Below are positions 7,962-46,770 of a stretch of 64,000 nucleotides of DNA, piece after piece (position 1 is the stretch's first letter; each line of letters starts with the position of its first letter). This stretch comes from Natronococcus sp. CG52 (GTDB lineage Archaea; Halobacteriota; Halobacteria; Halobacteriales; Natrialbaceae): assembly GCF_023913515.1 (NCBI RefSeq), contig NZ_CP099391.1:1364001-1428000 (forward strand). The letters are read 5' to 3'. Below the pieces are notes generated by a model. It saw only the letters and a list, made by a program, of their open reading frames with translations. It did not search any database and had not been told where the DNA came from. A program made the translations under genes and the position numbers.

Positions 7962-8172
7962 TGCTTTGATCGCGACTCAACGTCGTGAAGGAAGGAATCG
8001 GGGTTGACGCGATTGTGAACTACGCTGAGACGTTCCAGTTCGCTCTGCTCGCTCACGGGCGTCGGCGCTTTGTGCTGACTGCTCGAGGGCTCTTCGATCC
8101 CTCGCGGGCTGTGACTCGTCTACTTCAAATCGCTCTAGTCGCTTTCGCTCGTCACGAAATAGTTCGTCGCAA

Positions 8173-8200
8173 AAGCGGGCCGGGCGCGATTTAAACACGC
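8173..8200 (-). repeat. Left attachment site, tRNA-Lys 3' fragment
   Basis: 28 bp matching the acceptor and T-arm end of tRNA-Lys at 46743-46770, with one difference (A at 8193 against G). It contains GGGCCGGGCGCGATTT but is not followed by a D arm or anticodon arm, so it is a fragment rather than a gene. It marks the distal end of the element. Confidence 0.85.
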
Positions 8201-8351
8201 CCACCTTTTACCTGCGCGGGCGTGCGGCGGCTTACGCCGCCGTTCCTGCTCGCAAAAGCTGGACCAAAAATTGAAGAGTCAGCCACTGTCAAAAGTGGAG
8301 CTACAGGTCTCTTGCGCGCGTCAGGCCTCGGGTCGAGTCGCTCACGCAACC

Positions 8352-9374
8352 ATGACAACAAACGACCTCGACCCGATCGACCCCGGAACAACGCTCGAAA
8401 TGTACTTGCAATCCCGGCAGAGCGAACTCGCTAATAGTTCACTTGCAGCGCATCGACGACGGTTATCTCTGTTCGTCGATTGGTGTGACGAAGCGGGGAT
8501 CAATACTCTCGACGAGCTGTCTGCCCGAGACCTGCACGAGTTCCGCGTATGGAGACAGCAGGGGATTAAGAAAGATAGTATCTCACCAGAGACGCTCCGT
8601 TCTTCATTGTTGACATTACGTGTCTACCTCCGATTTGCAGCTTCGGTGGATGCTGTCGATCCCGATCTTCCTGAACAACTCGTACTACCAGCCGAAGCGA
8701 AGCGAGCAAGAGACGTAATGCTCGATACGGATCATGCTGAGGAGCTTCTTTCACACTTAAGTAAGTTTGAGTATGCGACCACCCCACATAGTATGCTGCG
8801 CATTTTTTGGGAGACGGGTATCCGTTCAGGAACACTCAGAGCATTAGATCTGGATGATTATCGTCGAGATCAACAATGCCTTAGAATCCGGCATCGGCCG
8901 AAGACTGGAACACCCTTGAAAAACGGCAATGACGCGAATCGTCTCGTTGCAATCAAAGAGCGGACGTGCCGTATTCTCGATGATTATATCGACGAGTACA
9001 GGTACGATGTGACAGATGAACACGGACGACGACCGCTATTCAGCACGGAATTCGGTCGTCGATCATGCCAATCTGTTCGGGCGAACGCCTATTTTTGGAC
9101 ATGCCCGTGTAGAGTAAACCTGCAGTGCCCACACGGGCGAGATCCGGATACGTGTGAGAGTAATAACTGGGAGGATGCATCAACGTGCCCGAGTAGCGTA
9201 TCGACGCACCCAATTCGACGAGGCTCAATCACGCATCACCTCCGTGAAGGCGTACCTGTAGCCGTAGCGTCCGACAAAACGGATGTATCACCATCTATAC
9301 TAGACGCCCACTACTCAGAAATTTCCGAATCGGAGGCTATGGAGGTGAGAAGAGATTATCTGAGCAATATTTAA
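8352..9374 (+). CDS. Tyrosine recombinase/integrase
   Basis: 340 residues from ATG 8352 (the frame extends to 8271 over the att flank). The N-terminal SAM-like DNA-binding domain (about 10-110) is followed by the catalytic domain with Arg158 (ETGIRSGTLRAL), His286 and Arg289 (HPIRRGSITHHL) and the nucleophile Tyr321 (LDAHYSEIS). A Cys-rich insert at 251-279 (CPC, C259, C268, C279) precedes the HxxR motif and may bind zinc, as in other haloarchaeal integrases. Its place just inside the left att site shows it integrates and excises this element at tRNA-Lys. Confidence 0.95.
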   Translation: MTTNDLDPIDPGTTLEMYLQSRQSELANSSLAAHRRRLSLFVDWCDEAGINTLDELSARDLHEFRVWRQQGIKKDSISPETLRSSLLTLRVYLRFAASVDAVDPDLPEQLVLPAEAKRARDVMLDTDHAEELLSHLSKFEYATTPHSMLRIFWETGIRSGTLRALDLDDYRRDQQCLRIRHRPKTGTPLKNGNDANRLVAIKERTCRILDDYIDEYRYDVTDEHGRRPLFSTEFGRRSCQSVRANAYFWTCPCRVNLQCPHGRDPDTCESNNWEDASTCPSSVSTHPIRRGSITHHLREGVPVAVASDKTDVSPSILDAHYSEISESEAMEVRRDYLSNI

Positions 9375-12397: not shown

Positions 12398-12911
12398 CCT
12401 TTCTCTTCGTGGTGAGCGCGAGCGTCAGGTTGGTTGCTTTATGATTTTCTGACGGGTTGTTTAATGTATCTTTCCTTCTACGGTTGCCTACGATGTTGTA
12501 CCCGAACTACCCCACCTGGATTGACTCGCAGATCTCATGTGTTAGACTCTAATGCGGAAATGGATATAACTGGGTGAACCGGATCGGAAGTGAAATACGA
12601 GACTGATAGCGGACTCTACTGGAGTTCGCTTAGCGTGGTGTATTTACGAACCATCTCTGCTGCCCATACACTACGCTAAACGTGGTGTGCGCCGGCTCAT
12701 TTCTGACCAGAATCGTATTTGCGTATCTGGATCTGCAGGTACCGGTTCGACTGTTGAACAAATCGACCTTTCAGGCGTGAGGCGTCCAAATTCGACCGTC
12801 TCAAAATCACCGTTTCTAACAACCAAATCGCACGTCTGTGCTTTCTATACAGGATATCGCGTGCGAATCTCTGACGACCAATGGAGTAGCGCTAGGGAGT
12901 TCTGAACGAGG
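12398..12911. other. Intergenic region with diverged 53-bp repeat
   Basis: 514 bp. It carries the promoter of the three-gene operon at the left and one copy (12601-12653) of a 53-bp sequence that recurs at 15121-15173. The rest contains no convincing gene. Confidence 0.5.
12601..12653 (+). repeat. 53-bp dispersed repeat, copy 1
   Basis: Starts GACTGATAGCGGA and ends near TTACGAACCAT. The copy at 15121-15173 matches it at about 80 percent of positions without gaps, and a weaker relative lies near 15490-15532. The two good copies bracket the decayed copper cluster. Confidence 0.7.
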
Positions 12912-14727: not shown

Positions 14728-15149
14728 TCAGAGTTTAGCACCCATCACTGACAAGTGAGTGACTCCGTCAAAATCTTGGTAGTCATCGATTCGAGACCCA
14801 AGCACTGTTTCACTGTAAGAACCCGTTCTGCGTCGCTGCTTCGTTCGATGAATATTCAAGCGGTGATTTGTTTTCTCGAATACGGCCAGTTTGGCTGTAC
14901 GCGAATCCCTGTGGAAACCACTCCCTTGTTCGACCATCAAACGAAAGCAAAATCAGGCCTGTTCGACCGATAATCGCTGCCCTATCCGACGATTATCGTG
15001 TGTCAAATGGAGGTGCGCTGTAGGCTCTAGTTCGATCATCTATCGAAGTCCGATCTCCTTGCCAGTGTGAACCTCAATAGAGCTATCAAATACGAATAAC
15101 GTATTCCACAATAAACAATAGACTGATAGCGGAATCTGTTGGGGTTCGT
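14728..15149. other. Intergenic region, mostly featureless
   Basis: About 420 bp between the ATPase remnant and the 93-residue gene. It contains the start of the second 53-bp repeat copy (15121-15173). No convincing gene was seen. Confidence 0.5.
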
Positions 15150-15173
15150 TTACCGTGGTGTATTCATATACCA
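15121..15173 (+). repeat. 53-bp dispersed repeat, copy 2
   Basis: Gapless match to 12601-12653, about 80 percent identical, starting GACTGATAGCGGA. It overlaps the last codons and stop of the 93-residue membrane protein gene. Confidence 0.7.
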
Positions 15174-15431
15174 TAGAATTCCAGCAACAAACGATCCGAT
15201 AAACGCCTGAATCAGAACCTCCTCGATCGAGGTTGGTGGAAGGTATTCTGAAATGAAGTAGAACAGCACTGCTTCAAGGACATCACCCTCCCCGAATAGA
15301 TGTGTAAGCCCAGTTAGGAATGACAGAATACCTCCCCCAAAAAGGTACATCGAAATAAAACCCACTACGGTTAGCGGTGTTTTGATGATGTATTTCACGA
15401 GTCCTCTTTCGTAACCGAATGCTTTTCCCAT
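15150..15431 (-). CDS. Small membrane protein
   Basis: 93 residues with three likely membrane helices: about 14-38 (IIKTPLTVVGFISMYLFGG), about 50-63 (LEAVLFYFISEYL) and about 70-88 (VLIQAFIGSFVAGILWYM). No family was recognised. It has a good ATG start and a hydrophobicity pattern unlikely to be a shadow. It stands alone. Confidence 0.6.
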   Translation of the reverse strand: MGKAFGYERGLVKYIIKTPLTVVGFISMYLFGGGILSFLTGLTHLFGEGDVLEAVLFYFISEYLPPTSIEEVLIQAFIGSFVAGILWYMNTPR

Positions 15432-16186
15432 ATTCTACCCCCTACCAATGCAATTGGGATTATAACAATATAGACTTTCAGGAATAATTGGATATAAGAT
15501 CGGTAGTGAGTTCTGCTGGAGTCCGAGTCGGATGGCCAAGTACCGTCTTAACGCACCTAATCTATCGTAGATTGATTACCAGCCACTTACGCGAGATACA
15601 CTCGTAGTGCGGACGAGTGAATCATTGTGTACGGTGACAGTGAATAACGGTACCACGGAGCAGTATCGTGGTGGTGTGCCATGTATCCATGACACGGTAC
15701 TGGCACTCGGATCAGTACCAGGATAGTGTACCAAGTTTCTGTACCACGGTACAGATCCGTGCTCTAGTACCATGGTCCTGTACCAAGAGCCAGATACAAG
15801 CGAATGTTCCTCGTCAGTGTACCGTAACGAATCAAAATCACCAATAATTCACTGACCTACTTGACGGCACTAAGAGCGGAGAAATTGACCACGTAGTCGT
15901 GTGGAATATCTCTCGTATCTAACGTCAGGGTTCAATACTCTAACAACTCTTCGATACGTACGAAGAGAATGAAGTAACGGTGTGGACTCACCCAATATAA
16001 TCTCTAATGATTCAAGGCGTGACTCGTACGCCGTCGCGCGGCTCATCATGTTCGTTCATTTCTTGATTGATGTTCTACGATCCTATGAGACGTGATGGAA
16101 AGAACACCTGAAAAACAAATCTTTAGAAGTGTAATTTAGACACCCAGGTTACTTAATTGGGGGCGGGGGAGCAAAGAGTGCCAACA
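15432..16186. other. Intergenic region holding a 13-bp repeat array
   Basis: 755 bp without a convincing gene. The notable content is the 13-bp-period GTACC array at 15650-15805. Around 15490-15532 there is a weak relative of the 53-bp repeat. The last 150 bp are AT-rich and should contain the promoter for the gene at 16187. Confidence 0.6.
15650..15805 (-). repeat. Iteron-like array A, 12 units of exactly 13 bp
   Basis: On the plus strand GTACC recurs in strict 13-bp register: exact at 15650, 15715, 15728, 15741, 15767 and 15780, with near matches at the remaining register points (GTATC 15663, GTGCC 15676, GATCC 15754, GATAC 15793). On the minus strand the core is TGGTAC. Unit 15741 is a perfect palindrome, GTACCACGGTAC. 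The same core and period recur in opposite orientation at 44050-44166. A binding array for one protein is the likely meaning. Confidence 0.85.
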
Positions 16187-16471
16187 ATGACAACAACCGA
16201 AACCACACTCAATGCGACCACTCTAAAGGAAATCCACGAACTCAATCGGGAGCACTTTACCGATTTCCGTGACAACTATGATGTCGTGTTTGAAAACGAC
16301 AAACTCGTCGTGTTCTGCGGGGCAAACGCCGAACTCAACGCAGTAGCTGACTACTACGACGTGCCGTATAGTGTCGTCTGTGAAATGATGTGGGACGAGT
16401 GCCCCTCCCATCTCGGGAGTGGCGTCGGCACTGCGTTCGAATACGGCACCCCGTTCGTCGTCAAAAAGTAA
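16187..16471 (+). CDS. Small unknown protein
   Basis: 94 residues from ATG 16187 (the frame extends upstream without a better start). It is acidic and mixed alpha/beta, with VVFENDKLVVFCGANAELNAVADYYDV in the middle; no known family. It is the first of three plus-strand small genes (16187, 16534, 17061) that may belong to the plasmid backbone. Confidence 0.6.
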   Translation: MTTTETTLNATTLKEIHELNREHFTDFRDNYDVVFENDKLVVFCGANAELNAVADYYDVPYSVVCEMMWDECPSHLGSGVGTAFEYGTPFVVKK

Positions 16472-18403: not shown

Positions 18404-19093
18404 TCAACGACCATACTCGTAGAGTGTCTCGTCGTACCACTCGACACCGCGGTTCGAAATCCGTGACACTGTTGCTGCAGGTACTCCGGTTGCGTCCGCG
18501 ACGGCACGCACGGACTCTCCCCGCTCCCGGCGGTCAATAACCTCTTCAACGATCTCCCATTCGGGACCGTGACGTTCTAGATGGCACTTGTCGTCAGCGA
18601 ACGTAAGACCGAACGGGACCGATCCTTGGTAGCACCCATTCCGCTGCCGTTCACGAATCGCTGCCTTCGCTTTCTTAATCTCCTCTTCTTTCGTTTGTCG
18701 TTCAACACGCCGGTGAATGTCGAATGCGAGGTCGTCGGTTTGCACGTCGTCGCTCACGTATGCGAACTCGCAATTACTCTGCACGGCGGCGTGTTTGATC
18801 ACGTTGAAGTACTCATCACGGCACAACCGTCGGTCGTCCCACGCGACGAGTAGATCGTACTCACCACGTCGAATCGTATCAACGGTCTCTCTCACGTCGT
18901 CACGTTGATCGAGAAGCCCATCCGGGTCGTCACGGGTGAGTGTGCTGAACCCAGACTGCACGCCTAAGTCGAGCGTGTGAACGTTGTCAGCGAGTTCCTC
19001 AGCGAGCGCCGGGACTTTTTCACGCTGCAGTTTGAGACCGACGTCATCATCGCTACCTTTCGACTTGCGAATCCACGCGAGTGCCCGGGTCAC
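18404..19093 (-). CDS. Serine recombinase (resolvase family)
   Basis: 229 residues. The catalytic Ser is probably Ser11 (ALAWIRKSKGS). A central ARG-rich active-site segment reads DLLVAWDDRRLCRDEYFN (about 76-94), and the C-terminus ends in an HTH (SVRAVADATGVPAATVSRI) as in small resolvases/invertases. It cuts and rejoins DNA at short sites through a phosphoserine intermediate. It overlaps the AbrB-type gene by 4 bp (ATGA-type coupling at 19090-19093). It lies just inside the left arm of the inverted repeat and could act there or in resolving plasmid multimers (inference). Confidence 0.88.
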   Translation of the reverse strand: MTRALAWIRKSKGSDDDVGLKLQREKVPALAEELADNVHTLDLGVQSGFSTLTRDDPDGLLDQRDDVRETVDTIRRGEYDLLVAWDDRRLCRDEYFNVIKHAAVQSNCEFAYVSDDVQTDDLAFDIHRRVERQTKEEEIKKAKAAIRERQRNGCYQGSVPFGLTFADDKCHLERHGPEWEIVEEVIDRRERGESVRAVADATGVPAATVSRISNRGVEWYDETLYEYGR

Positions 19094-19278
19094 TGGTTAT
19101 CACCCATGTTTTCCGCTTCGGTGAATTCTACTTGGACCTTTCCGTTCTCCGGGTTTATCGACCACTCAACCTCGATGTCTGACTCTACGGGAACATCTTT
19201 GATTGCGAGTATCTCTCTCGGGACAGTCGAAGCATAACTGTTTTGCGAACGCTTCCACAGCTTCGTGGTAAACTTCAT
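19090..19278 (-). CDS. AbrB/SpoVT-like DNA-binding protein
   Basis: 62 residues: MKFTTKLWKRSQNSYASTVP followed by REILAIKDVP and a strand-rich acidic end. The swapped-hairpin AbrB pattern (KLxxRxQxSxxSTVPREIL) is recognisable. It probably autoregulates itself and the recombinase, to which it is coupled by a 4-bp overlap. Confidence 0.75.
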   Translation of the reverse strand: MKFTTKLWKRSQNSYASTVPREILAIKDVPVESDIEVEWSINPENGKVQVEFTEAENMGDNQ

Positions 19279-24545: not shown

Positions 24546-24641
24546 TACGTAGATAGGGACATAATTGACTCCGTAGTCACCTCAAAGTAGTGTAAAACTT
24601 GGAGTACGCTCCTGGGATAAAATAAGGTGTTTTGACGACTA

Positions 24642-24661
24642 CCCCCACCCCCCTCATTTCG
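24642..24661 (-). repeat. ORB-like repeat, distal copy
   Basis: CCCCCACCCCCCTCATTTCG, an exact 20-bp inverse of 25162-25181. It is preceded by TTTTGACGACTA, which recurs in degenerate form at 24718 (TTTTGACAACCA). Confidence 0.7.
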
Positions 24662-24957
24662 GACGTTCTTTTGACTAAGAGTAACCCACTACTCCAGCTA
24701 CCATGAGTGATTAGGCGTTTTGACAACCACATTCTCCTCTCATTTAGATATTGCTTAAGTTGAGGATGTAGAGGAATGCATATAGGATCAGTAGTGATCT
24801 GGATTCGGGTTAGATGTATATAAAGAAATCGCACCAATCAACTGATGGAAATTCATATGGTGCTCTTAGATGCTCTTAACCACATTCAGATAATAGAACG
24901 TAACTTGAAAGGGGATAGAACACCCGGTATAGTAAAGTATATAATAACGTTCTAGAT

Positions 24958-24978
24958 AGTAGTAGTAGTAGTAGTAGT
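24958..24978 (+). repeat. AGT trinucleotide microsatellite
   Basis: Seven consecutive AGT units inside the origin region. Such runs are rare in haloarchaeal DNA and could vary in length between strains. Confidence 0.8.
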
Positions 24979-25131
24979 ACTCCATACTAGGATTAGATGT
25001 CTCGCAGAACCATGTAGGATCAATCACTAAGCACAAGATCTATTTAACCTATAATCTCCATAGAGCGTCTGTACCTACCGGTTCCAAGAATTCATAATCG
25101 CTCGCTTTCAGTTCCTCATCTGTGAATCACT

Positions 25132-25181
25132 CCCCCACCCCCTTTCGAGACTAACTACGCGCGAAATGAGGGGGGTGGGGG
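25132..25181. repeat. Paired ORB-like inverted repeats, proximal
   Basis: A C-rich copy (25132-25147) and a G-rich copy (25162-25181) face each other across 14 bp (AGACTAACTACGCG). They lie about 190 bp upstream of the orc1/cdc6 start. This is a likely initiator binding site and probably also controls the gene. Confidence 0.65.
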
Positions 25182-25370
25182 TCCCCATCTCTCAACAGGT
25201 CATAAACAGTATCGGCTATCAGTTCAGTAGTGTCTGTCAAGGGATCTCGTAAACACAATAGATCAGTGATTTTGATGGTGGTTATCGCTCTCATCGTTAG
25301 GATGATGTTTGGGTTCTTCACTCAGCTAAAAGTATATTAATTACTACACCATTCTTCTACACAGTTTCAA

Positions 25371-26672
25371 ATGGACACACCCTTCCGAACTCGATCGCAC
25401 AAAACGGAACCGAATCCATTAGCGGATATCTTTGAAACTAGAGAGCCATTCACAGAGGGATTCATCCCAAACAGGATTGTTGAACCTGAAGAGGAATTCC
25501 AGCAGCTCGTGTTTACCTTCCAAGAATATGTATCTGGAATGGAGATGAAGGATATATTTGTATATGGAAGACCAGGTGTAGGGAAGCGTACAGTAGTTAA
25601 ACACTTGATAAGACTCGTTAGAGATGAGATTGATAAAGAAATCAATGTAGTGACCATCGATTGTAGATTACACAGTACAATTTATCAAATATATATTGAA
25701 CTTGCTAACAGCCTAACTGAGGAAAGATACAAAGAAGGATATCCAGAGCAAACTCTCTTAACGTCGGCATTCTCTCAAATAGAGAAATCGGATACACCAC
25801 ATTATATTCTTGTAGAGAATATGGAGCACCTTAGTCCAAGCGAGTGTCTTTTCTACGAATTTGAGACAAGCTGGTCAGAATATGGATCTCCTGATAATGA
25901 ACTCGGAGTTATTGGTTTTTCTAATGAAAATAAAATCAGAGATGCTCTACTAGATCATTCAGCAAAGAGGCTACTTAGTAGAGCACAAGTTGCGGAAATC
26001 AAATTCCATACGCATGACTCCCAACATCTCAACGATATCTTAGAACTGCATGCAGATATAGCATTTGTAGATGACGTACTCAATTCAGGTGTTATACCCA
26101 AATGTGGGGCGATAGCAGCTCAACTCACTGGTAGCGCAAAAACAGCCTTACAATTACTTGAACTATCTGGATATATCGCGTCTCAACTGGACGAAAAAGA
26201 GGTAACAGAGGATCATGTGGAGTTAGCCAAAGACGCATTGGAAGAGCTGGAGGTGTTTTTGACCTTCACTCAAAATCTGAGCATTCAAGAGCAGTTACTT
26301 TGTGTTTTGATTACTGTGGATAACGTTGTTACTGGGGAAAGAGTTACTTCTAAAAAATTATATAAGGAATACATTGATGATTGTGAGGTGTTTAATTTAG
26401 ATCCTGTTTCAAAACGGCGTGTTCGGGATTACATTCACACCTTGGAAGACAATCATCTTGTTACATCCACTGAACACAATACTGGAAGGCGAAAAGGAAA
26501 ATGGTATGAATACCACCTATTACCCCATCCAAAACCGGTTGTAGAGGCAGCTGTCGTAACAGCTCCACAATTTGAGCGCATACTTCAACAAAAAGGTGCA
26601 ACAGTTGGAGATTTGAATAATGATGCAGAGTTTAACATAAACCTTGAGCATTTTACAATGCGTTCTCTCTAA
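25371..26672 (+). CDS. Orc1/Cdc6-family replication initiator with altered Walker B
   Basis: 433 residues. AAA+ ATPase with Walker A GRPGVGKRT (about 66-74), a sensor-1 region VIGFSNENKIRDALL, the sensor-2-like stretch GSAKTALQLLELSG, and a C-terminal winged helix from about 300 (YIHTLEDNHLVTSTE). Archaeal Orc1/Cdc6 binds origins and loads MCM. The Walker B strand reads YILVENMEHL where the family has hhhDE, so the metal-coordinating acidic pair is changed and ATP hydrolysis may be weak. It is encoded beside the origin-like region, so it is probably the element's own initiator. The codon use is AT-rich compared with the chromosome. Confidence 0.92.
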   Translation: MDTPFRTRSHKTEPNPLADIFETREPFTEGFIPNRIVEPEEEFQQLVFTFQEYVSGMEMKDIFVYGRPGVGKRTVVKHLIRLVRDEIDKEINVVTIDCRLHSTIYQIYIELANSLTEERYKEGYPEQTLLTSAFSQIEKSDTPHYILVENMEHLSPSECLFYEFETSWSEYGSPDNELGVIGFSNENKIRDALLDHSAKRLLSRAQVAEIKFHTHDSQHLNDILELHADIAFVDDVLNSGVIPKCGAIAAQLTGSAKTALQLLELSGYIASQLDEKEVTEDHVELAKDALEELEVFLTFTQNLSIQEQLLCVLITVDNVVTGERVTSKKLYKEYIDDCEVFNLDPVSKRRVRDYIHTLEDNHLVTSTEHNTGRRKGKWYEYHLLPHPKPVVEAAVVTAPQFERILQQKGATVGDLNNDAEFNINLEHFTMRSL

Positions 26673-26955: not shown

Positions 26956-28122
26956 TTAAGGGTTAAACGAAGTACAGCTTCGGCACCGAAGTGAATCTTT
27001 GATAGTCTGTAGAGGATTCTCTGCGGTAAGTTCTCGATCACAAGACGAACATTGAGCGTTTTCTGTGGGTCCGATACCGTTCCCATATCCGACAGTGACT
27101 GTTCGGATTACTCCTTCCTCAGCCAATTCGATATCCATCTCTCCTCGCTCATACTCTACTTGCGTTACCGTGAGAGGGGCCACTCGAACGTCTAACGCGT
27201 GGCGCTTACGGATCTCTTCCTGCTTCTGAGGATATCCCTGATCTCGTTGCTCGTGCAGGTCTCTTAATTCCGAATCAATCTCCTCGTACTCTGCTTTCAG
27301 CTTTTTTCTCTCCTTAAGTGCCTCTACGCGGTCATCTTGGTCACTACCGTTGATCGCTTCACTCAGTTCGTCGATCTTCGAGGATAGCTTCGAACGTTCT
27401 TCTTCCAACTCTTGGATACGTTGTTGTTGCAGCTCGCGGTACTCTTCGACCTCTGCGTCTGCAGCTCTGGATGCCTCTCTGTGAACTTCGTCAATTTCGG
27501 TCTGCACCTTTTCCATTAGCTGACTCTGAGCGGTGTCGAGAAGTGAACGAGTGTCTGTTTCCGAAAACGACGATTGAGAGTTAGTAGATATCTTGTCTGT
27601 GGTCATCGACGTCATTCGGAGAAACGTCTCTTCCAACTCTGGAAGGCTCTGTTCCGAGTGACCATCTATGGCGATGGCCCGAAGGAACTCTTGCTGATAC
27701 TCACTGACGGTCTCGATACTCACCCGGAAGAGCACCACAATCGCCGCTCGGTCGTAATATGGTGTGAATTGGGTTTCCTTTACTTCAACATCGCTTCCCT
27801 CCAGCCACTGTGGTATCTCTACTTCGGCCTGATCGGTTTCTATCGTCAGCTTTCCCGTGGGATGACGTTCACTCGCTTCTCTGAGAATCCGCTGGAAAAA
27901 CTCACTCTCCGGATGAAGAGGCTCTCCAGTAAACTCCTCATCGATGTCGTCGCCAGTGAGTAACGACATCTTCCCGGCTGGCAATCCCGTGTCCTCATTC
28001 TCGGGGACGATAACCTCCCATTTGTCCCCTTGTTTCTCGATAGTACCGCCAAGCGATTCTAAGTAGCGTTCGGTAAATTCCTCGACTGCGGACTGTGTAA
28101 CCGCGAGGGCTGCATCAGTCAT
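26956..28122 (-). CDS. Coiled-coil zinc-ribbon protein partnered with SNF2 helicase
   Basis: 388 residues from ATG 28122, which overlaps the helicase stop by 8 bp; the frame extends upstream only as a shadow of the helicase. Residues ~215-330 are a long charged coiled coil (RELQQQRIQELEEERSKLSS). The C-terminus has two CxxC pairs (CSSCDREL, CRSCTSF), a probable zinc ribbon. The N-terminal ~200 residues are alpha/beta and unrecognised. It is the second gene of the leftward helicase operon and divergent from the ATPase, so it probably belongs to the same defence complex. Confidence 0.8.
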   Translation of the reverse strand: MTDAALAVTQSAVEEFTERYLESLGGTIEKQGDKWEVIVPENEDTGLPAGKMSLLTGDDIDEEFTGEPLHPESEFFQRILREASERHPTGKLTIETDQAEVEIPQWLEGSDVEVKETQFTPYYDRAAIVVLFRVSIETVSEYQQEFLRAIAIDGHSEQSLPELEETFLRMTSMTTDKISTNSQSSFSETDTRSLLDTAQSQLMEKVQTEIDEVHREASRAADAEVEEYRELQQQRIQELEEERSKLSSKIDELSEAINGSDQDDRVEALKERKKLKAEYEEIDSELRDLHEQRDQGYPQKQEEIRKRHALDVRVAPLTVTQVEYERGEMDIELAEEGVIRTVTVGYGNGIGPTENAQCSSCDRELTAENPLQTIKDSLRCRSCTSFNP

Positions 28123-29869
28123 CGCTTTCCCCCAGATCAAAGCCTTCGAAGACACCGCTGTTGAACTCCTCCAGTTTGTCAGCGAGTTCGCGTTGCTCCT
28201 GTAAATCGACGGCCATCGCATCGAAGTCGTTCTCCAAATCGACTTCTGAATCAGCATTGACCAGTCGCTCGAAAATCTGGTCTTCGAAACTCGTCCCGGA
28301 CTCTTCTAATCGACTCAGGATTGAACTCAGTTCTCCCACACTCTGTTGGAACAAGTCGATTTTATGGTAGAGCCGCTCCAGCACGTATTCTTCAACAGTA
28401 TCCTTCAGTGCCATATTGAAAATGAAGACATCTCGTTTCTGTCCGATACGATGGACACGCCCGATCCGCTGTTCAACGCGCATCGGATTCCACGGTAAAT
28501 CCATGTTCACCAGCAAATTACAGAACTGGAGATTGCGTCCTTCACTCATCGCATCGGTTGAAACGAGGATACCTCCTTGCTCCTCGAAGTTCTCCACGAT
28601 CTCCTCTTTCTCACTACTGGAGTGCCCGCCATGGAACGCGTGAACTGTATACCCCTCTGAGGCAAGTCGGTCGAGCACCTGTCGTTGGGTCGCTCGGAAC
28701 TGCGTGAAGACGATCACGCGCCCCATCTCGACATTGTCGCGGGCCTCTTCGACGATGTCCAGGAGTCGCTCCTGTTTCGTTACCGTATCGATATCTTCGA
28801 TCAGGTCCAGAATTGACTCCAGTTCGTCCGCGTGAGTGAGTTCAGATTGCTCATAGAGTCGTTTCTCGATTGTTTTCTTGAGCGCTACGGGGCTGCTAAC
28901 GACCTCCTTCTGGAGGAGCATCAACACGAGCTTCTGTCCCTGATTCTGGCTGTAGGCACCCTTGACGTAGTCAGAGACTGCTTGGTAGAGTTCACGTTCC
29001 TTTGGAGTCGGATCGAACGTCCGTGTATCGACAGTTCGGTCCGTGAAGTCAATATCCGTGTCTTCTCGTCGGTTCCGGATCATCACCTTGTTCAGTCGTT
29101 CCTGTAGCTCGTCTCGGTTCACCAGCGTCTCCTGATTGCTGTTCACGAAGTACTGATGGAAGACATCGCGTGTGCCGAACAGGCCGGGGCGGAGTAGCGA
29201 GACGACGTTGTACAAGTCCGTTAATTCGTTCTGGATTGGCGTTGCCGTCAGGAAGAACGCGTAGTTGTACGTGAGCCGGTCGATCAGGGCATATCGGTCT
29301 GTCTCTTCGTTCTTGACGTAGTGTGCCTCGTCGAGTACCAAAACGTCCCAGTTGCGGTCAAGTACCGTCTGTCGGTGTCGTTCACTCTTCGCAGTGTCGA
29401 TGCTCGCAATGATGTAGTCGTGTGCGTCAAAATCCTCGAACTCATCGTCATAGTTGCATACAAAGTCGAGGCCGAACTTCTCACGGAGCTCAGCCTGCCA
29501 CTGTTTCGCCAGTTGTGCAGGCGTGAGAACGAGCACGGACTCATCCGTGTCCCGAAAATGCATCTCCTTGAGAATCATCCCGACCTCAATGGTCTTTCCA
29601 AGTCCGACCTCGTCAGCAAGGAGGGCTTTCCCATCCATCTCGAAGAGGGCTCGGTAGGCTGCATCCACTTGATGTTCGAGTAGCTTGACGGAGTTTTCGT
29701 CCAACTCCTTCAGCGACCGAAGTTCAGAGTCCGGCTGACCCGCCTGAAGACGAACGGCCTGGATACTCTGTAGATGGTTCCCATCGGTAGTGTCGGTAGA
29801 TAGGGAGTCGAGAAGATCGTCCGCAGGCTCGTGTGAGACCTCAACATCGACGAGGTCGTAGCCTCTCAT
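28115..29869 (-). CDS. SWI2/SNF2-family helicase of Hma-like system
   Basis: 584 residues. The SF2 motifs are in order: ADEVGLGKTIE (Walker A, about 85-95), DEAH (180-183), FLTATPIQNEL (motif III), VIVFTQFRATQRQVL (motif IV), and VEQRIGRVHRIGQKR (motif VI). This is the RapA/SNF2 type of ATP-driven DNA translocase. It is the first gene of a two-gene leftward operon whose promoter region (29870-30011) is shared with the divergent ATPase gene. Helicase, large ATPase and DUF1156 methylase together match the arrangement named Hma (helicase, methylase, ATPase). Confidence 0.93.
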   Translation of the reverse strand: MRGYDLVDVEVSHEPADDLLDSLSTDTTDGNHLQSIQAVRLQAGQPDSELRSLKELDENSVKLLEHQVDAAYRALFEMDGKALLADEVGLGKTIEVGMILKEMHFRDTDESVLVLTPAQLAKQWQAELREKFGLDFVCNYDDEFEDFDAHDYIIASIDTAKSERHRQTVLDRNWDVLVLDEAHYVKNEETDRYALIDRLTYNYAFFLTATPIQNELTDLYNVVSLLRPGLFGTRDVFHQYFVNSNQETLVNRDELQERLNKVMIRNRREDTDIDFTDRTVDTRTFDPTPKERELYQAVSDYVKGAYSQNQGQKLVLMLLQKEVVSSPVALKKTIEKRLYEQSELTHADELESILDLIEDIDTVTKQERLLDIVEEARDNVEMGRVIVFTQFRATQRQVLDRLASEGYTVHAFHGGHSSSEKEEIVENFEEQGGILVSTDAMSEGRNLQFCNLLVNMDLPWNPMRVEQRIGRVHRIGQKRDVFIFNMALKDTVEEYVLERLYHKIDLFQQSVGELSSILSRLEESGTSFEDQIFERLVNADSEVDLENDFDAMAVDLQEQRELADKLEEFNSGVFEGFDLGESDD

Positions 29870-30011
29870 ACTTTCGTAGAGACAAGTATGCGTGAAATAC
29901 GTTTTGTGACCGACAACCCTGATCAGTACATCTTACGAGACTCACAAAACAGACTGAACCCACAGGACCATAGTGCTTATTGGGTGTCAAAGGAGTCTGG
30001 TAAGTATCAAG

Positions 30012-33000
30012 ATGGCACAAACCGGATCTTTATCAAATACCCTCGAAGACACGGTGACTCTCAGCCGTGAACTTCGAGAAGACGGACAGATCGATGGTCA
30101 AGTAAAGCTCTACAACGTTGACGACGACAACGAATTCGAGTCCGACGCGGAGCTCTTCTTCGAACGGACGCTGATGACTCAGGGGCTCCGAGAGGCCCTC
30201 TCGATCCTCCGAGATTCCTTGACTGGCGATGACCCACGGGGGACGCACATCCTCTATGGCCCGTACGGCAGTGGGAAGTCGCACCAGATGGTAGCACTAT
30301 ACCACTGTTTTGATGACCCCCAAGCAGCAGGCGCATGGACGAGCGATTCAATCGAAGGGTTTGATGCTGCGCTCCCGGAGTCGGCAACGCCGATTACGGT
30401 CGCCATGCAGAACGAACAGTACGAGTACCTCTGGGAACCGTTCTTCGAGGCACTCGATTACGATCCTGGAACGTTCAGCTCGGGCGGGTATCCCGATATG
30501 CAGACGATTCAGGAGGCTGTCGGCGACGAAACGGTCGCGTTCTTCGTGGACGAACTGGAGGACTGGTTTGACACACTCCAGGGCGACCGCAAGAGTGCGA
30601 ACAAAGCCTTCCTTCAGTCACTCCTCGAATCGACGGCGCTCTCGGACCTCGAACTGTACACTATCGTCTCGGTGCTCCGTGAGGGTTCCGAGGTTCACGA
30701 CATTCTGAACCGGGAACAGGCGGTCGAGGTTAATATGAACAACCAGGTGGACAAACGCGAGGTCCTTCGCCACCGCCTGATCGACTCCGTGGACGAGAAT
30801 GCTGCCCGTGAGATCGTCAACGGGTACTTTGATGCCTACGACCAGTCCGACCACGTCACCATTCCCGACGGTCTGCTGTCGGAAATGCATGACCTGTATC
30901 CGTTCCATCCCGTGCTTCTGGACGCGCTTGAGACGCGCTACTACGCCGACGAGGACAATCAGAACACGCGCGGGATGATCTACCTCTTCTCGAAGGTCCT
31001 CTTGCAGATGCAGGATCAGACGGACCTGATCACGCACGGCGACATCGACGCCATCGAGTTCGAGGACGAGCTGGCGAAGATCAATTACGAACGGTTGAAC
31101 GCCGCAACTGGTGACATCAAAAGCCGTGTCGACACAGATGAAGTTCCTCACGGTCGCCGCATCTTGAATACGATTCTGCTATACTCGTTGAAGCCCAGTG
31201 AGGGCGAGGGGGCGGAGGTCTCTGAGATCGTGATGGGGGCCTACCAAACGGACGACCTCGTCTCCGACGTCGTGCTCAACCTCGAACGACTCCACGGTGT
31301 CGCGTGGCACCTCCACAAACTGAACGGGAAGTATGCTATCCGTGACCGTCAGAACCCGAACGCACTTATTCGAAATGCAGCTGTTGATGTCTCGGAGACG
31401 TCAGCGAAAGCCGAGATCGCGGACTTCATTACGGATATCTTTGGCTCGAACGCGTACCCGGTCGGGTTCCGGACGAACGACATGCGGGACATCCCGGATG
31501 ACCGTGAGGTGAAAGTCGTCGTGAAGGACAGTCAGTGGGTGCAGGAGGAAGTTAAGAAAGTAATCACGAACGATGGCCGCGGACGCGAATGGCGCAACAC
31601 GCTCGTGTTCGTCCAGCCATCCGGTGACAAAGCCATCGAATCAGGCACGCGGTACATCGACAAGGCGCGGTACATCGAGGGAGCGCGGCAGGTACTCGCG
31701 GATGAGTCCCTCGACAACGAAATCCGCGCGTCGATTCGGGGTATGAAGGAGCAAGAGGAGAACGAACTCCGTGAAGAGCTTCAACTCCTGTACGGCGAAG
31801 TCATTGACGGCGAGAATCTGTTGGATGACGACGAGTGGGCAGACGTAGAGCCGATGGATCTCGACGTTTTCGTCCTCGATGACGCCGAACTCGACGCGAC
31901 AAATATCGCAGATTCAGCTGCTGCTGACCCGTTCGATCTTCAGTCGCACGTCTGGGATATCGCTGAAGACCTGCTGGAGCGACGCGGGGAGATCTCGGTC
32001 GAAGACATCTACGAGCAGTTCCTCCGCGACCCGGAACTCCCGATTCCCGGAAGCGCGAACGACGTGCTGAACGCGACGGTCAAGGCGCTCTCAGACAAGC
32101 CGGTTCTCGCCCGTGATACAGGTGGATTCCGCGACGACCTCTCTGGAAGCTCGCTTGATACCGTCCTCGTCCGGCAAGATGACGTGGACGTGTGGGGTGT
32201 TGATGACGTCGAACAGGAACTACGCCAGCGCTTCGGTAGTGGGACGACGGCGCTCGATATCGGAGACTTCGAACTGGAACTCGTCGAAGATGGGGAAATC
32301 TGGCTCGATGGCGATAGCCACGACGTCGTTATGCGTGCCATTGGTCGGCTCGCCCGTGAGGCACAGTATGTCATCGTGAAAGGGAACGAGATTCTCGACA
32401 AGCCGCAGTCCGACGCAACGCTCCGCGATGTCGGCGGTGCGGATGTCGTCGGTGCATCGTCCCTCGTGGACCGCATCGAGACACACATCAACGAAGACGG
32501 CTACGCGAACCTCGACACGATCATCGGCGAAATCCGCGGGGAGGAATCGGTGTTCCTCCCGCCGGACGAGACTGAGTCCGTCGCCCGCGAGGCGGTCAAC
32601 GATTTCCTTGTGGACGACTACGTCTTGGAAGCCGGCGGTCGATACCTCGGGTCGCTTGGCGACCGCGACCCGACGACGGTGAAGATCGTCCCGACGGTTC
32701 CCGACCGGATCGGTGACCAGATTCTGGAATACATCGAGGACCTAGAACCGGGTGACCAGTTCACGGTGAACAAAGTCACCGATCGGTTCGACAGCAGCGT
32801 CACCGAGTATATGGTACGGACATACCTGCTGGAGAACATCGGGAAGGACGAAGAACCAGAGTACGTCGTCAACACGACCGGCTCGGAGAAAGCCTCCGAC
32901 TGGGTACCTGGGTACCCGTTCCGGAAGGCCGACACGGAAATTCCCACGTGGCGCTTCGAGTACAACGGTGACGACGTCGCTGCGATGCGGAGCAAGTGGC

Positions 33001-33224: not shown

Positions 33225-33310
33225 TCTATCAAGGTCTTATACTGCTGTCACAGCGTTCCTGTGTACCGGACTCTAGAAAGCTATTCAACATTTCAGTATA
33301 CACACTCAAT

Positions 33311-34438: not shown

Positions 34439-34565
34439 TATCTTCGACCCCCCTCGTTAAGGATGACTATTGTCAAACCAGCCAATTGTACTTTTCCGGT
34501 TAGTCTCTAACCAAGAGAACGCACACTTATGTGGCTCGTGGATAATCGCATCTACATACTGAATA

Positions 34566-37250: not shown

Positions 37251-37344
37251 AGGTCGTACCCTAACTCTACGCGGCTACGTTTTTCCTCCGTCGATTCCGA
37301 TATTGTCAGTGATGTTTTCACCGCCTCTCCTGCTATAGTGATCT

Positions 37345-38061: not shown

Positions 38062-38105
38062 TGACATCCCAAGGTACTTTCTACCCTCCCTGAGCAATCA
38101 ACTGT

Positions 38106-40235: not shown

Positions 40236-40298
40236 CATCCGATTGCCGTAGCCCGCTTGAACTTGTCACACCGAGCTAGAATCAATCAATCACAGGTG

Positions 40299-40439
40299 AT
40301 GAAACGGTTATTCTGTCTCATACGTGAAGTTGAGTATGAAGAACCATGCGACAAGCTGAAAGCAGACGCCGACGAGCGTGCCGACCAACCAGACTTCGAC
40401 GCGTTACTCCCGCCGGAAGGCTTCGTCCGCGAAGACTGA
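40299..40439 (+). CDS. Small acidic protein
   Basis: 46 codons from ATG 40299: MKRLFCLIREVEYEEP, followed by an acidic end with DFDALLPPEGFVRED. It lies 44 bp ahead of the 127-residue gene on the same strand and has haloarchaeal-like codon use. The function is unknown; a real gene is plausible but unproven. Confidence 0.4.
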   Translation: MKRLFCLIREVEYEEPCDKLKADADERADQPDFDALLPPEGFVRED

Positions 40440-40483
40440 AGTACCGTACCCCTTTTTGACCCCTCGCCAACATTCCGTAGGTA

Positions 40484-40867: not shown

Positions 40868-40871
40868 CGCG

Positions 40872-42629
40872 CTACAGAAGTTTCAGTGGTCCTTCTTTCT
40901 CGACTTCACCACTTCCGTTCAGGAAGTACAGGTCGATCCACTCCTGACCCTGTTCACGGCAGAACACAGGGATGCACGTTGTCGTGTGCTCGTAGCGCTG
41001 CTTACAGCGCGTCTCGATTTGCTCCCGCGTCCAGTCACCGTCCTGCTCTAGGTCGTACCGATTGCGGACCTCCCACGAGTGCTCGTCGGCGGCAGCCTTG
41101 AGAACGCGCAGCGAGAAATCCCGAACGTCCTTGAAGATGAACGGCCCACTCATTGATTTCGCTTCACTCAGATCCGCCTCTTCGACGCCGTCGAGGCATA
41201 GTCGATTCTCTGCGACAGCGCGGAAGGCTTCGAGTTCGGTTGATTTCCGAACGAGTACGTCGTGCAGGTAGCCGTGGACGACGTTGCCGTATCGGTCCAA
41301 GGTGAATTCGCCCTCAGGTGAGACAATTTGCAGTTCAGCACCAGTTTGGGTGACTCGCCGGCGCTTCGGTTCAAGTAGCGGACAGAGGAACGCGAGTCGG
41401 TCAGCGTGGAGGAGGTAGGCGTAGCTGAACAGTCGTGACCTGGACGGTGATTCCTTAACCGGATCGTGACCCTCCGCGTAGTACTTCGAATCCAGTACGG
41501 CCAGTGTCTCGTCACCCTCCTGCAGCGCGTGGTCCGGTTCGTGGTATATTTGTCCCTCTCCCTCGAACGGATTCACGGACGGTGACCGAACGGGTGTCAC
41601 GTCGTCGAGGTCGCCGAGGTGGTCGTAGGACTTGATGTACGAGAGCTCGCGCTCGATGACGACCTGAGAGTACTGTTCAAACAATGACTCCATGTTTAGG
41701 ACGTAATCTACGACCAACTCTCGCGGACCGTCACGAAGTTGCTGGCCGAGTGACGACGACATCACCGCTTTAGCGACGTCGAACGCCTTTTGATAGTACC
41801 GTCGCTGCTTCGGAATGTCACTGAGCGAGAGGCGTCGATACTCGTCCATCCGGTCCAACCCGCTCCCGACACCCATACTCTCCAAGCGTTCCACCTCTCG
41901 GTGAACTTCCGAGAAGATGCGGTCGTACGCAGGGTGGTCGTTCTGCTGCGAGTTCTGTCGGAAGAGCCGAAGCAGGGTCTTTCCGGCGAAGTGGAGCAGC
42001 GAGTTCGCGGCGTTATCGTACTCAGTCTCGTTGCGGACCCAATGTGGCTCCAGCGTCCCGCGCGCGTGGTTCAAGAGCGTCTGTTCGACGTCGATCTCAC
42101 CCCGCCCATCGAGACTGTCGAGTCGCCGGATGACCAGATCGCGGATGTACCCTTGTCGGTGAATCGTCTCTAACCCGTCGAGGTAGTTGATTGCCAAGAC
42201 CACAAAGACGTCGTCGAGGTGGATATCGTCGGAGAGGAAATCCTGCAGCGGGATCCCATGATACTCGATGGACCGGTTCTGGTCGTAGACGGCCAACAGC
42301 ATGTCGAAGATGTGCTCCCAGTCAATCTTCGGATCGACCTGTACTTTCGACGACGGTGTGAGGCTCACTACGCCGATGATGTCCGTCGCCTCGACGTGGA
42401 TCACCTCGTTCTCGTCTCCGTCTACGGTGACCGTCACGACCTCGTACTCCTGATCGCCGTTGAGTGCCGCCTGACTCTTCGTGAAGACGCCTGGACTCTT
42501 TTGTGTGAAGGAAGCGCGACGAAGCTGGTCCCCGATGGACGACGGACAGCCCTCTATCCGGATCTCCCCTCGCTCGGGGACGTTGAAAGTGTCTTGCCCG
42601 TACTCGTAGACTTCGTCAACGGTGCTCAT
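40872..42629 (-). CDS. mcrC: McrC-like nuclease subunit of McrBC restriction system
   Basis: 585 residues. The N-terminal and middle regions follow the McrC pattern (IDWEHIFDMLLAVYDQN, then HPAYDRIFSEVHREV). The nuclease motif is visible as YHEPDHALQEGD and LAVLDSKYYAEG, a PD-(D/E)xK site with Asp and DSK. McrC joins McrB to cut DNA with modified cytosines. Its ATG overlaps the mcrB stop by one base (TAATG), so both are made together. It is longer than E. coli McrC (~350) owing to N- and C-terminal extensions that are common in archaea. Confidence 0.92.
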   Translation of the reverse strand: MSTVDEVYEYGQDTFNVPERGEIRIEGCPSSIGDQLRRASFTQKSPGVFTKSQAALNGDQEYEVVTVTVDGDENEVIHVEATDIIGVVSLTPSSKVQVDPKIDWEHIFDMLLAVYDQNRSIEYHGIPLQDFLSDDIHLDDVFVVLAINYLDGLETIHRQGYIRDLVIRRLDSLDGRGEIDVEQTLLNHARGTLEPHWVRNETEYDNAANSLLHFAGKTLLRLFRQNSQQNDHPAYDRIFSEVHREVERLESMGVGSGLDRMDEYRRLSLSDIPKQRRYYQKAFDVAKAVMSSSLGQQLRDGPRELVVDYVLNMESLFEQYSQVVIERELSYIKSYDHLGDLDDVTPVRSPSVNPFEGEGQIYHEPDHALQEGDETLAVLDSKYYAEGHDPVKESPSRSRLFSYAYLLHADRLAFLCPLLEPKRRRVTQTGAELQIVSPEGEFTLDRYGNVVHGYLHDVLVRKSTELEAFRAVAENRLCLDGVEEADLSEAKSMSGPFIFKDVRDFSLRVLKAAADEHSWEVRNRYDLEQDGDWTREQIETRCKQRYEHTTTCIPVFCREQGQEWIDLYFLNGSGEVEKEGPLKLL

Positions 42630-43861
42630 TATTCGTAGGAGCCCATCTGACGTCTTTCCTGTTCGAGTTCTCGTTCGGCTAACTCAGCAGCAGGGGCGAG
42701 GTCGAACTCCTCGAACTCTCCGTTCATCGCGCGGTAGTGTTCTGCGATTCGCTCGATTTGCGGGAACGCGGCGGCGTTCAGGAGTCGCGGAACGATGTAC
42801 GTCCGGAACGCCTGTCCGACCGCATCAGTCTGGTCGTACTCATACTCGCCACCCTCCCGACAGCCGACGCCGAGGAAAACGGCGACGTCGCGGTAGTGCA
42901 TCGGACCGAAGCGCATGATCGATCCTTGCGACGTCGATTCGTGACCGTGATTAATTCCCTGATAATCGCGCTCGAACAGTCGAAGGATCTCGCTTTCGCC
43001 GAGATCCGTGTTTTCGGTGACGTGTGTGGTGATCCAATCTTTGAACAGCTGCCGGCGTTTGTCCTCCTCGTACTCGTCCAGTTCGATCATGGCGAACCGG
43101 CGGGTGATCGCGTTGTCAAGTTCGTTCACCGTCCGGTCGGACATATTCATAGTGCAGATGATGTTCACCCGCTCGTCGAGTTCAATTGTCTCACCTTCGT
43201 CAGTCTCGAAAATGGTCTGGTGAGGATTCTCGATAGCAGTATACAGCGGGCCAAAGATTTTGGAGATATCTGCGCGAGTGATTTCGTCTAGGATCACGCC
43301 GTATTGGACGTCAAATCGACGGGCACGCTGTACGGCCTCCGAAACGCAGCCTAATTTCGTACGGTAGCTCAGAGATTCTCCGGTATAGTCTGGGCTGATG
43401 CCCCCGATGATATCTGACGGTGTCCACGAAGGCGTTGCAGTATTGAGACTGTATCCGATACCGGTGTCTTGGGCCAGCTGTTTTGCGAAGGTTGTTTTCC
43501 CTGTACCAGTAGGACCGTACAGAACGACTGGCTTTCCGGTTTTGAGGGCAACCTTTGCGTTTCGCATCACATCGTCTGGGACAAGGACTTCCTCAGGTGT
43601 TTCATCTCCTCGCAAACTCACGAGACGCTTAAGGCTGTCAGAAGCAATCGAGGATTCCAAGACTGCACGTCGAACTTTACCGAGTCCACGCTTTCCATCG
43701 TGGATCCTATCCAGTTCTTCGTCTTCGATCAAATACCGAACTACGCTTTCGTCTTCTGCGTTTTTGATTGCATCTACAACATCCTCCTCGACGCGACGAA
43801 GGATATCTATCTCCTCCTCTGCATCCTCTCGTGTGTAGACCTCGTCAGATGAATTACCCAT
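42629..43861 (-). CDS. mcrB: McrB-like AAA+ GTPase/ATPase subunit
   Basis: 410 residues. Walker A YGPTGTGKTTF is at 115-125, Walker B GVILDEITRADISK about 190-203, and the sensor region IICTMNMSDRTVNELDNAITRRF about 235-257. The N-terminal ~95 residues are helical (YTREDAEEEIDILRR) and replace the methylcytosine-binding domain of E. coli McrB, so the target may differ. It drives translocation for McrC. It is the first gene of the leftward mcrBC operon, facing away from iteron array B. Confidence 0.92.
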   Translation of the reverse strand: MGNSSDEVYTREDAEEEIDILRRVEEDVVDAIKNAEDESVVRYLIEDEELDRIHDGKRGLGKVRRAVLESSIASDSLKRLVSLRGDETPEEVLVPDDVMRNAKVALKTGKPVVLYGPTGTGKTTFAKQLAQDTGIGYSLNTATPSWTPSDIIGGISPDYTGESLSYRTKLGCVSEAVQRARRFDVQYGVILDEITRADISKIFGPLYTAIENPHQTIFETDEGETIELDERVNIICTMNMSDRTVNELDNAITRRFAMIELDEYEEDKRRQLFKDWITTHVTENTDLGESEILRLFERDYQGINHGHESTSQGSIMRFGPMHYRDVAVFLGVGCREGGEYEYDQTDAVGQAFRTYIVPRLLNAAAFPQIERIAEHYRAMNGEFEEFDLAPAAELAERELEQERRQMGSYE

Positions 43862-44254
43862 TTATAGAGAGAAGCCATGGAAACCTTATAAATTCTCTCG
43901 AACGAATCTGTCAGACCAACTTCTTCGGTAGATAGGTGTCAGAGCCAGCAATGAATAGCGGAATGTCTGCAATTGAATGACTCAAATCACAGTATGACGA
44001 TATCCCGGCAAAAAGGAGTAACAGAGAACATCATCAGTAACTGACTCGTGTTACAGAACTGTGGTACTGTATCATGGTACAGGAGCGTGGTACTGGAATT
44101 CGGTACTAGATCGTGGTACACAATCTTGGCACTACCTCCTGTACCAGTAATCAGGTACTGGACCCCGTCACGCCTCTACAATATAGTTCGATTCTTGAAG
44201 GGCGCACCAACTTTGCATAGATATTTAATAGCCTATCCAGGAATCGAAAGCAGA
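43862..44254. other. Divergent intergenic region holding array B
   Basis: 393 bp between mcrB and the plus-strand gene at 44255. It contains array B (44050-44166) and, on the left side, an AT-rich stretch that should hold the mcrBC promoter. No gene was seen. Confidence 0.6.
44050..44166 (+). repeat. Iteron-like array B, nine units of exactly 13 bp
   Basis: GGTAC recurs in strict 13-bp register at 44063, 44076, 44089, 44102, 44115 and 44154, with near matches at the other register points (GTTAC 44050, GGCAC 44128, GTACC 44141). The base before the core is mostly T, giving TGGTAC, then loosely TGnAT. It is the same core and period as array A (15650-15805) but on the other strand. Its place directly upstream of the gene at 44255 suggests control of, or binding by, that gene's product. 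Confidence 0.88.
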
Positions 44255-45232
44255 ATGCCACTACCATACCCCGAACAGGCTCGATTCTACGGACTTGACG
44301 AATACCAGGTTGACGTTCTCTTCATCATCACATGGTGGTATAACGGGAAATGCCTGAAAATGGGCAATGAGAAACGGCAGCTAGGGACTCATTCCGAACC
44401 CCAACTTCGGGAATTGTTCAGTGGATGGTCAGCTGAGGAGTACTCTGATCATGAAGACGCTCATCAACAGTTATTGGATCGGGGCTTTCTACGCGAAGGA
44501 TGGATTTGTCGTCGAAAAATCGATTGGATTCCGACCGAGCAAGGACTTCAAGCCATTCGTGACATCTTCAAGGACTGTGCAGATGATTTTAACCTCCGCC
44601 CTGGCTGGGCTTCAGAGGATGACTCCGGTCCAATTTTCGGAGATCCGAACGAACTACTCCTACACCGGAAAGGTGTCGAGGCTGCTGCCCACTATGTGGA
44701 GAATTACACGTGGGTCGAACGCCTCACCTGGTACCCAATATTAGGTACCCACGAACATCATCCAGATCTTAAGATGCGCACGCCACAGAAGACTTTAGAT
44801 TGGTTTGTAGAGGTTCTCACTAGCACAGGTGATCGTGATGGATGGGTTGAAAAGTGGGAAAGTTACAAGAAACGGTTTGTGAAAGTGTGGTGGATCTTTG
44901 AGGGACGGTCGGATATGTGTGCCTTTTTCAACAAGCTACACGATGAAAGGATCTACACGCTTGATGGTGGTCCGTTCTCTGAACCATACAAAAATTGGTC
45001 AGCAGACGCTGTGAACCGGAAAATTTGGCGCAGCCGTAAGGTTGGGAACAACGATCAAGAAGCGGCACATCTCGTTAGTACGATTACGAGCCTTGTTGAG
45101 GCCGAGTCAGATGATGTGACGGAGTGGTTTGATACCCACTTTGAAATGAGAGATACACTCAATCCAGTCCAGCAATATCACGGGGTAGATGAGTTCGGTA
45201 ACGAGAAATGGTCAGGAATCCGAAAATACTGA
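44255..45232 (+). CDS. Unknown protein with winged-helix-like N-terminus, next to array B
   Basis: 325 residues from ATG 44255 (the open frame reaches back through the repeat array, which is non-coding). The N-terminal ~95 residues alternate helices and a wing (YQVDVLFIITWWYNGKCLKM; QLLDRGFLREGWICRRKIDW), as in winged-helix DNA-binding proteins. The rest is unrecognised, with Trp-rich segments (FVKVWWIFEGRS). The array begins 200 bp upstream, so it may be a plasmid replication, partition or control protein (inference). Confidence 0.65.
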   Translation: MPLPYPEQARFYGLDEYQVDVLFIITWWYNGKCLKMGNEKRQLGTHSEPQLRELFSGWSAEEYSDHEDAHQQLLDRGFLREGWICRRKIDWIPTEQGLQAIRDIFKDCADDFNLRPGWASEDDSGPIFGDPNELLLHRKGVEAAAHYVENYTWVERLTWYPILGTHEHHPDLKMRTPQKTLDWFVEVLTSTGDRDGWVEKWESYKKRFVKVWWIFEGRSDMCAFFNKLHDERIYTLDGGPFSEPYKNWSADAVNRKIWRSRKVGNNDQEAAHLVSTITSLVEAESDDVTEWFDTHFEMRDTLNPVQQYHGVDEFGNEKWSGIRKY

Positions 45233-46499: not shown

Positions 46500-46742
46500 C
46501 ACGGTCTAAGTGAGGTGTGGTCTGACTAATAATCGACCCCGGACAGCTAGCGCAGCCAGCAATCCCACTCGCGCGCACCATCTTGTTAACGCCCATAGCT
46601 TTAACACGTACACCCTCGAATCGCGGGATGACTCTGACCCGAGCAACCCGACGTTGCGCACCGTCTCGCAGAATGCGTGCCAGCGCAAGCTCAACTCGAC
46701 GCATGCTGGCGATTACTCTGGACTCTGTTACGCAAGGCGCAG

Positions 46743-46770
46743 AAGCGGGCCGGGCGCGATTTGAACACGC
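46743..46770 (-). repeat. Right attachment site within tRNA-Lys
   Basis: 28-bp direct repeat of 8173-8200 with one mismatch. It covers the acceptor end and T arm of tRNA-Lys plus four flanking bases, as is usual for tyrosine integrases that use tRNA 3' ends and leave the tRNA intact. Confidence 0.85.

Follow-up and report, generated by a model that had tools for sequence, protein, structure and literature searches.

Gap-free 13-bp repeat arrays without a par operon on an integrated element of Natronococcus sp. CG52, possibly orphan centromere-like sites

Short repeats that keep an unvarying 13-bp step raise the question of what would read such a step, and what for. The window, by which we mean the whole 64,000-nucleotide stretch that was analysed, lies on contig C1 (3.97 Mb) of the 4.74-Mb, three-contig genome of Natronococcus sp. 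CG52. A sequence-only reading of it had described 12 units at 15650-15805, with GTACC at exact 13-bp intervals. Located by a motif chain that was derived from related arrays, this block is somewhat longer, and there is a second one, array B, which was absent from that reading:

15643..15824, minus strand: array A, 14 units of 13 bp without indels, consensus TGGTACWGTAWCN as read on the minus strand
44036..44165, plus strand: array B, 10 units of 13 bp with the motif of array A in the opposite orientation, between the divergent McrB-like and 44255 genes

The place of the first block thus stands, and its extent and unit count are corrected. The chain scores are 111 for A and 100.9 for B, as compared to a best of 16.3 in eight one-strand shuffles of the element that carries them. 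Lag-13 self-identity has its window maximum at 15648 (73/140), and shuffled sequence, the control that the sequence-only reading had proposed, did not match it (mean 55, max 64 over 100 shuffles of the 64-kb window by a first-order Markov model). The spaced motif GTAC-N9-GTAC was observed 7 times as compared to 0.56 expected, always inside arrays A and B. The gap-free register is therefore real, but GTACC is not found in every unit; it is exact at 7 of the 14 in-register positions of array A, and the degenerate units read GTATC, GTGCC, ATGAC, GGCAC, GATCC, GATAC and GTTCC. Nor was the proposed 12-bp palindromic unit seen, perfect palindromes of 10, 12, 14 or 16 bases being absent from array A, and the unit consensus is just pseudo-palindromic (r=0.76, permutation p=0.02). 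CRISPR repeats are about 23-47 bp long with unique spacers, and a CRISPR was rejected since the units here are 13 bp without separate spacers; on this, and on the array not being a simple tandem repeat, the earlier reading agrees with the sequence.

Both arrays are found inside an integrated element of 38.6 kb, as deduced from att-like repeats at a tRNA-Lys gene and an integrase at 8271. Its features, apart from the arrays, are:

8168..8200, plus strand: left-hand att-like copy of a 33-bp direct repeat, 94% to the copy at tRNA-Lys
8271..9374, plus strand: tyrosine integrase, 72% identical to the integrase of the element in genome G118
15150..15431, minus strand: small membrane-like protein left of array A, no family found
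16187..16471, plus strand: unassigned 94-aa protein right of array A, one weak match below the cut-off
18404..19093, minus strand: serine resolvase with a C-terminal HTH, candidate array binder in a rival reading
19090..19278, minus strand: 62-aa protein in front of the resolvase, AbrB-like by eye, no Pfam match
24641..25182, no strand: G-rich inverted repeat pair upstream of orc1, arms 24641-24666 and 25157-25182
25371..26672, plus strand: Orc1/Cdc6 replication initiator of the element
42629..43861, minus strand: McrB-like AAA+ ATPase, array B beginning 175 bp upstream of its start
44255..45232, plus strand: unassigned protein of 325 aa, 90 bp to the right of array B, no family found
46738..46770, plus strand: right-hand copy of the att-like repeat, which overlaps tRNA-Lys(CTT) (46745-46819, minus strand) at its 3' end

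The element also carries defence-like genes, which match HmaA/B/C-type, GmrSD and McrBC models, and a nucleoside deoxyribosyltransferase gene. The G-rich inverted repeat pair before orc1 is presumably origin-like. Replication-origin iterons were rejected as a reading of the arrays, which are 9.5 kb (A) and 17 kb (B) from orc1, the inverted repeat pair being what stands directly upstream of that gene. A 62-bp direct repeat (79%; 12593-12654 and 15113-15174 of the window) flanks short fragmented ORFs, possibly as the ends of an inserted unit. A search for parA (PF13614) gave no match in the window, the nearest on C1 being at 1291714 and 1483630, both outside it. Homologues of the small protein encoded after parA at haloarchaeal par loci, below called the partner, were also missing from the window (best match E=2.4), and the host genome has matches solely beside parA on contig C3.

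Looked for in related integrated elements, the array is present. We located 16 arrays on integrated elements of eight genomes (G000, G032, G046, G091, G118, G370, G399 and G401), two of them in the window element and seven in one G032 region; one G032 array of 3 units (389200-389238) was excluded from the motif statistics. With at most 3 mismatches allowed, a strict pattern of 5 units matched 9 of 125 family genomes, and the sequence profile of the array 10 of 125 family genomes and 10 of 391 class genomes. Some matches were rejected: those in G012 and G148 (among 8/391 class-genome matches) do not extend into arrays, those of the profile in G194 and G354 are simple repeats of 26 bp, and that on contig C3 of G118 (L162, G118:C3:130990-131046) consists of TGGTA repeats in the promoter of a small gene, apparently for an RHH regulator. 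In IMG/VR, 72 stretches fit a 3-unit pattern, and only L080 (35% GC) and, weakly, L067 scored above 0 on the array profile, so the array was not seen in IMG/VR by this pattern. By blastn, array A had no match in plasmids or phages, and the G401 array none in plasmids.

Three groups of these arrays show unit-for-unit homology across 109-187 bp, in flanks that are mostly non-homologous; the exceptions are near-relatives (G091/G399, 92.7% over 1.4 kb; G046/G118, 92% over 485 bp). Between the window and G118 the identity is 0.75 in register, as compared to a mean of 0.46 when the arrays are slid by whole units, and spacer positions (0.70) are nearly as conserved as motif positions (0.79). The spacers are thus not simply free to diverge, as had been supposed, since their bases are also kept within one lineage. 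This conservation as blocks supports a reading of the arrays as centromere-like sites. A mobile MITE was set aside, as conserved blocks are present but no terminal repeats were seen in the array comparison. No gene family is present on every one of the eight elements, and no neighbour gene of the arrays is constant. Furthermore, no parA was found in the stretches read of the eight elements and no partner homologue near the arrays, which argues against the centromere-like reading.

The main rival of that reading is that the arrays are operators, where a regulator of the element or the host would bind the 13-bp sites cooperatively and repress or activate nearby cargo, such as the defence genes, McrBC or the small genes at 16.2-17.4 kb. 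Array B, intergenic between divergent genes with the McrB-like start 175 bp to the left and the next gene 90 bp to the right, also fits an operator. The G032 homologue of the McrB-like gene also has an array upstream (364097-364161), and the G118 array sits between divergent genes. A double role is moreover described for the RHH centromere proteins of pSM19035, which also regulate promoters overlapping parS (PMC9499535). However, some arrays (G032 380171, G370, G401) are found where genes converge or past a 3' end, positions at which a promoter is not expected, and their neighbour genes are not constant. We consider operators rather unlikely as the explanation of A and B. A defence block is common to the window (26956-43861) and G032 (G032:C1:364638-380034), in inverted order and with 63-97% identity for the matched proteins; arrays are present beyond both its ends in G032 and beyond the McrB end alone in the window.

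The element-borne serine resolvase could also use the arrays, for binding or for recombination, and a resolvase-like gene is found at most 10.2 kb from an array in six of the eight elements, with a fragment in a seventh. But G370 has none in the 120 kb read, and the resolvases belong to different families, several of the proteins seeming to lack the catalytic serine. Resolvases are in any case common on such integrative elements, and res sites are not known to take the form of long 13-bp arrays. We regard this explanation as very unlikely. The resolvase-like proteins seemingly without a catalytic serine are encoded 0.4 to 3.5 kb from arrays (G399:C2:197367-198239, G091:C1:1968619-1969479 and G032:C1:352211-353149). 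On two elements a small AbrB-like gene is followed by a serine resolvase gene (window 18404-19278 and G032:C1:351012-352050).

A structured non-coding RNA would account for the folding z-scores of -3.5 for array A (minus strand) and -3.9 for the G118 array (plus strand), but the homologues fold differently, eight other stretches gave z-scores of -1.0 to -2.9, and GTAC repeats pair by construction. The arrays had no Rfam match above threshold, and we find an RNA highly improbable.

Two matches from outside the element group, in G164 (strict pattern) and G235 (profile), are directly upstream of parA followed by a small acidic protein. G235 belongs to another family, and its array before parA has 46 units over roughly 600 bp, the longest seen (L170:18300-18890; G235:C6:46300-46890). 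These two arrays led to a wider survey of 40 parA loci from 11 genomes. Among loci whose ParA has an EAGG/ESGG Walker motif (n=30, made up of 11 of the 40 loci, 18 further ones and L145), 29 of 30 have an upstream 13-bp array, with at most 1 of 200 shuffles reaching the lag-13 score, some of these loci being near-copies; lag 13 was the top lag in 28 of the 30. The exception is L209, where 7/200 shuffles reached the score. By comparison, 2 of 24 KGG-type parA loci have a 13-bp array, L205 and L171 (G235). Six of the 40 loci (L185, L188, L190, L191, L201 and L202) fit neither Walker pattern and were left unscored.

The array motifs vary between parA systems while the step is constant at 13 bp, and the motif is pseudo-palindromic in five of six parA array types, that of L211/L212 failing (p=0.66). 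Most simply, the plasmid arrays before parA would be centromeres, serving the ParA-partner pair as partition site and as operator. The step upstream of one parA clade, and of few KGG-type genes, supports the centromere-like reading of A and B. The earlier proposals, of a protein that reads a fixed 13-bp step and of a comparison with haloarchaeal plasmid centromeres, are thereby well supported. An 8-bp step was observed upstream of some KGG-type parA genes (L180, L182, L183), and a 9-bp step upstream of others (L179, L184, L187, L192-L196), where a coding bias is possible as 9 is a multiple of three. It looks as if step length (8, 9 or 13 bp) were a marker of the parA clade.

The protein encoded after parA is acidic and of low complexity in its N-terminal part, which is followed by a conserved C-terminal domain. 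The partner proteins had no Pfam match (one tested) and no NCBIfam match (four tested). Read by eye, the C-terminal domain may be a ribbon-helix-helix; AlphaFold models had a low confidence (mean pLDDT 50.4 and 63.2) and did not confirm the fold, and the PDB yielded no convincing relative, the one match being at E 0.25. With one member as query, relatives were retrieved from 127 of 391 class genomes and 45 of 86 genera. Of 29 loci from this search, 27, drawn from many haloarchaeal genera, have parA in reach (not L287 and L288), and 23 of these 27 carry a 13-bp array, no significant array being seen at L267, L268, L277 and L281. All 18 strong partner matches in ten genomes are beside parA. The partner is also found on 13 named haloarchaeal plasmids, six of which were opened; in all six the pair is annotated as 'ParA family protein' followed by 'hypothetical protein', and lag 13 is elevated, five at 0/300 shuffles and L294 at 5/300. 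On two named plasmids (L294, L296) the parA-partner pair is followed by genes annotated as rod-determining factor RdfA and as archaea-specific SMC-related protein.

The motifs of the element arrays and the parA arrays could be compared directly. The window PWM correlates with the G235 parA array (r=0.85, 0/1000 permutations), a match partly ascertained as G235 was retrieved with the window-motif model, its parA adjacency being independent of this. With the ESGG type the correlation is weaker (r=0.54, p=0.019), and four other parA array types are unlike the window motif. These matches, together with the symmetry of the unit, support the centromere-like reading. The host's own two 13-bp par systems, both on C3, have other motifs than A and B, and no cognate partner is thus known in the host cell, which speaks against it. 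Compared with the haloarchaeal par arrays, A and B share the step and the pseudo-palindrome, and each exceeds the at least four contiguous units that define such arrays (14 and 10), but parA directly downstream and a partner on the element were not found. For this reason we do not file A and B as members of that class; most likely they would work like them.

A narrower form of the centromere-like reading is that the element copies the centromere of another replicon and hijacks its ParA-partner pair, in the manner of SGI1. The element is integrative, with two arrays and no par genes, its motif is near that of the parA-upstream array in G235, and there is the precedent of SGI1 itself, which carries parS twice while lacking a complete Par system (PMC10954446). 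SGI1 differs in that its sites are single 22-bp inverted repeats, it is bacterial, and its helper system is known. Unlike what is expected of such a parasite, the window motif is on no host plasmid: a profile search of the host contigs (E up to 10) gave the arrays in the element and one weak short match elsewhere on C1 (E 0.53), with none on C2 or C3, and a matching par system on a co-resident plasmid was not found. In addition, none of the placed profile matches in the 125 family genomes stands before a parA. Theft in this strict form we regard as quite unlikely.

Our preferred explanation, held tentatively and a little short of an even chance, is the broader one that A and B are centromere-like arrays of the 38.6-kb integrative element, orphaned from parA and partner, and serve segregation through a partition protein that acts in trans or has escaped recognition. 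The att repeats, the integrase, orc1 and the several arrays per element support it; the element also has defence genes, but it lacks parA and any recognisable partner. Each pseudo-palindromic 13-bp unit would take one dimer of a DNA-binding protein, and on gap-free units the dimers would stack at 13-bp intervals to form a single nucleoprotein patch. For the excised element, segregation would then most likely depend on a partition protein provided in trans, or on one not recognised. Full ParA activation in pSM19035 takes at least four repeats without gaps (PMC9499535), and a similar need would explain the absence of indels between the units. The earlier conclusion that only a protein that binds or polymerises explains the register goes further than the data, as no binder of A or B was found and the non-motif bases are also kept within one lineage.

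The likeness to the haloarchaeal ParA-partner plasmid systems consists of the gap-free 13-bp step, the pseudo-palindromic unit, the often more than one array and the orc1-bearing, replicon-type element; the difference is the missing parA and partner, and that A and B are 28 kb apart and not before a par operon. StbA of plasmid R388 binds repeat arrays as well, but their length and step differ from the 13-bp arrays and the plasmid is bacterial. The stability operon of R388 is stbABC (PMC3098194). The parS sites of pSM19035 with the RHH protein ParB (omega) are also contiguous short repeats, several per replicon and partly in promoter regions (PMC9499535), but the heptads are 7-bp and non-palindromic and the plasmid has its own ParA and ParB. 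SegAB and AspA-ParBA of the Sulfolobales are archaeal ParA-type segregation systems whose site-specific binder acts upstream of the operon (PMC5120986); their sites are palindromic, without long fixed-step arrays, and the archaea are distant.

The source on these last systems (PMC5120986), a review on segregation in archaea, names the handling of multiple replicons in halophilic archaea and the look of archaeal centromeres as open matters. In the literature covered, with subscription papers and preprints mostly outside its scope, no 13-bp-step centromere is described for haloarchaea. The 13-bp step upstream of parA and the conserved unnamed partner, in 127 of 391 class genomes, provide defined sites and a defined protein for experiments. 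It is conceivable, although we lean against it, that haloarchaeal plasmids share a class of segmented centromeres with a fixed 13-bp step and a motif for each ParA-partner pair, and that integrative elements carry orphan copies to ride on foreign partition proteins. Should the integrative elements make use of their orphan arrays as well, archaea would be a further case of the theft of centromeres known from SGI1.
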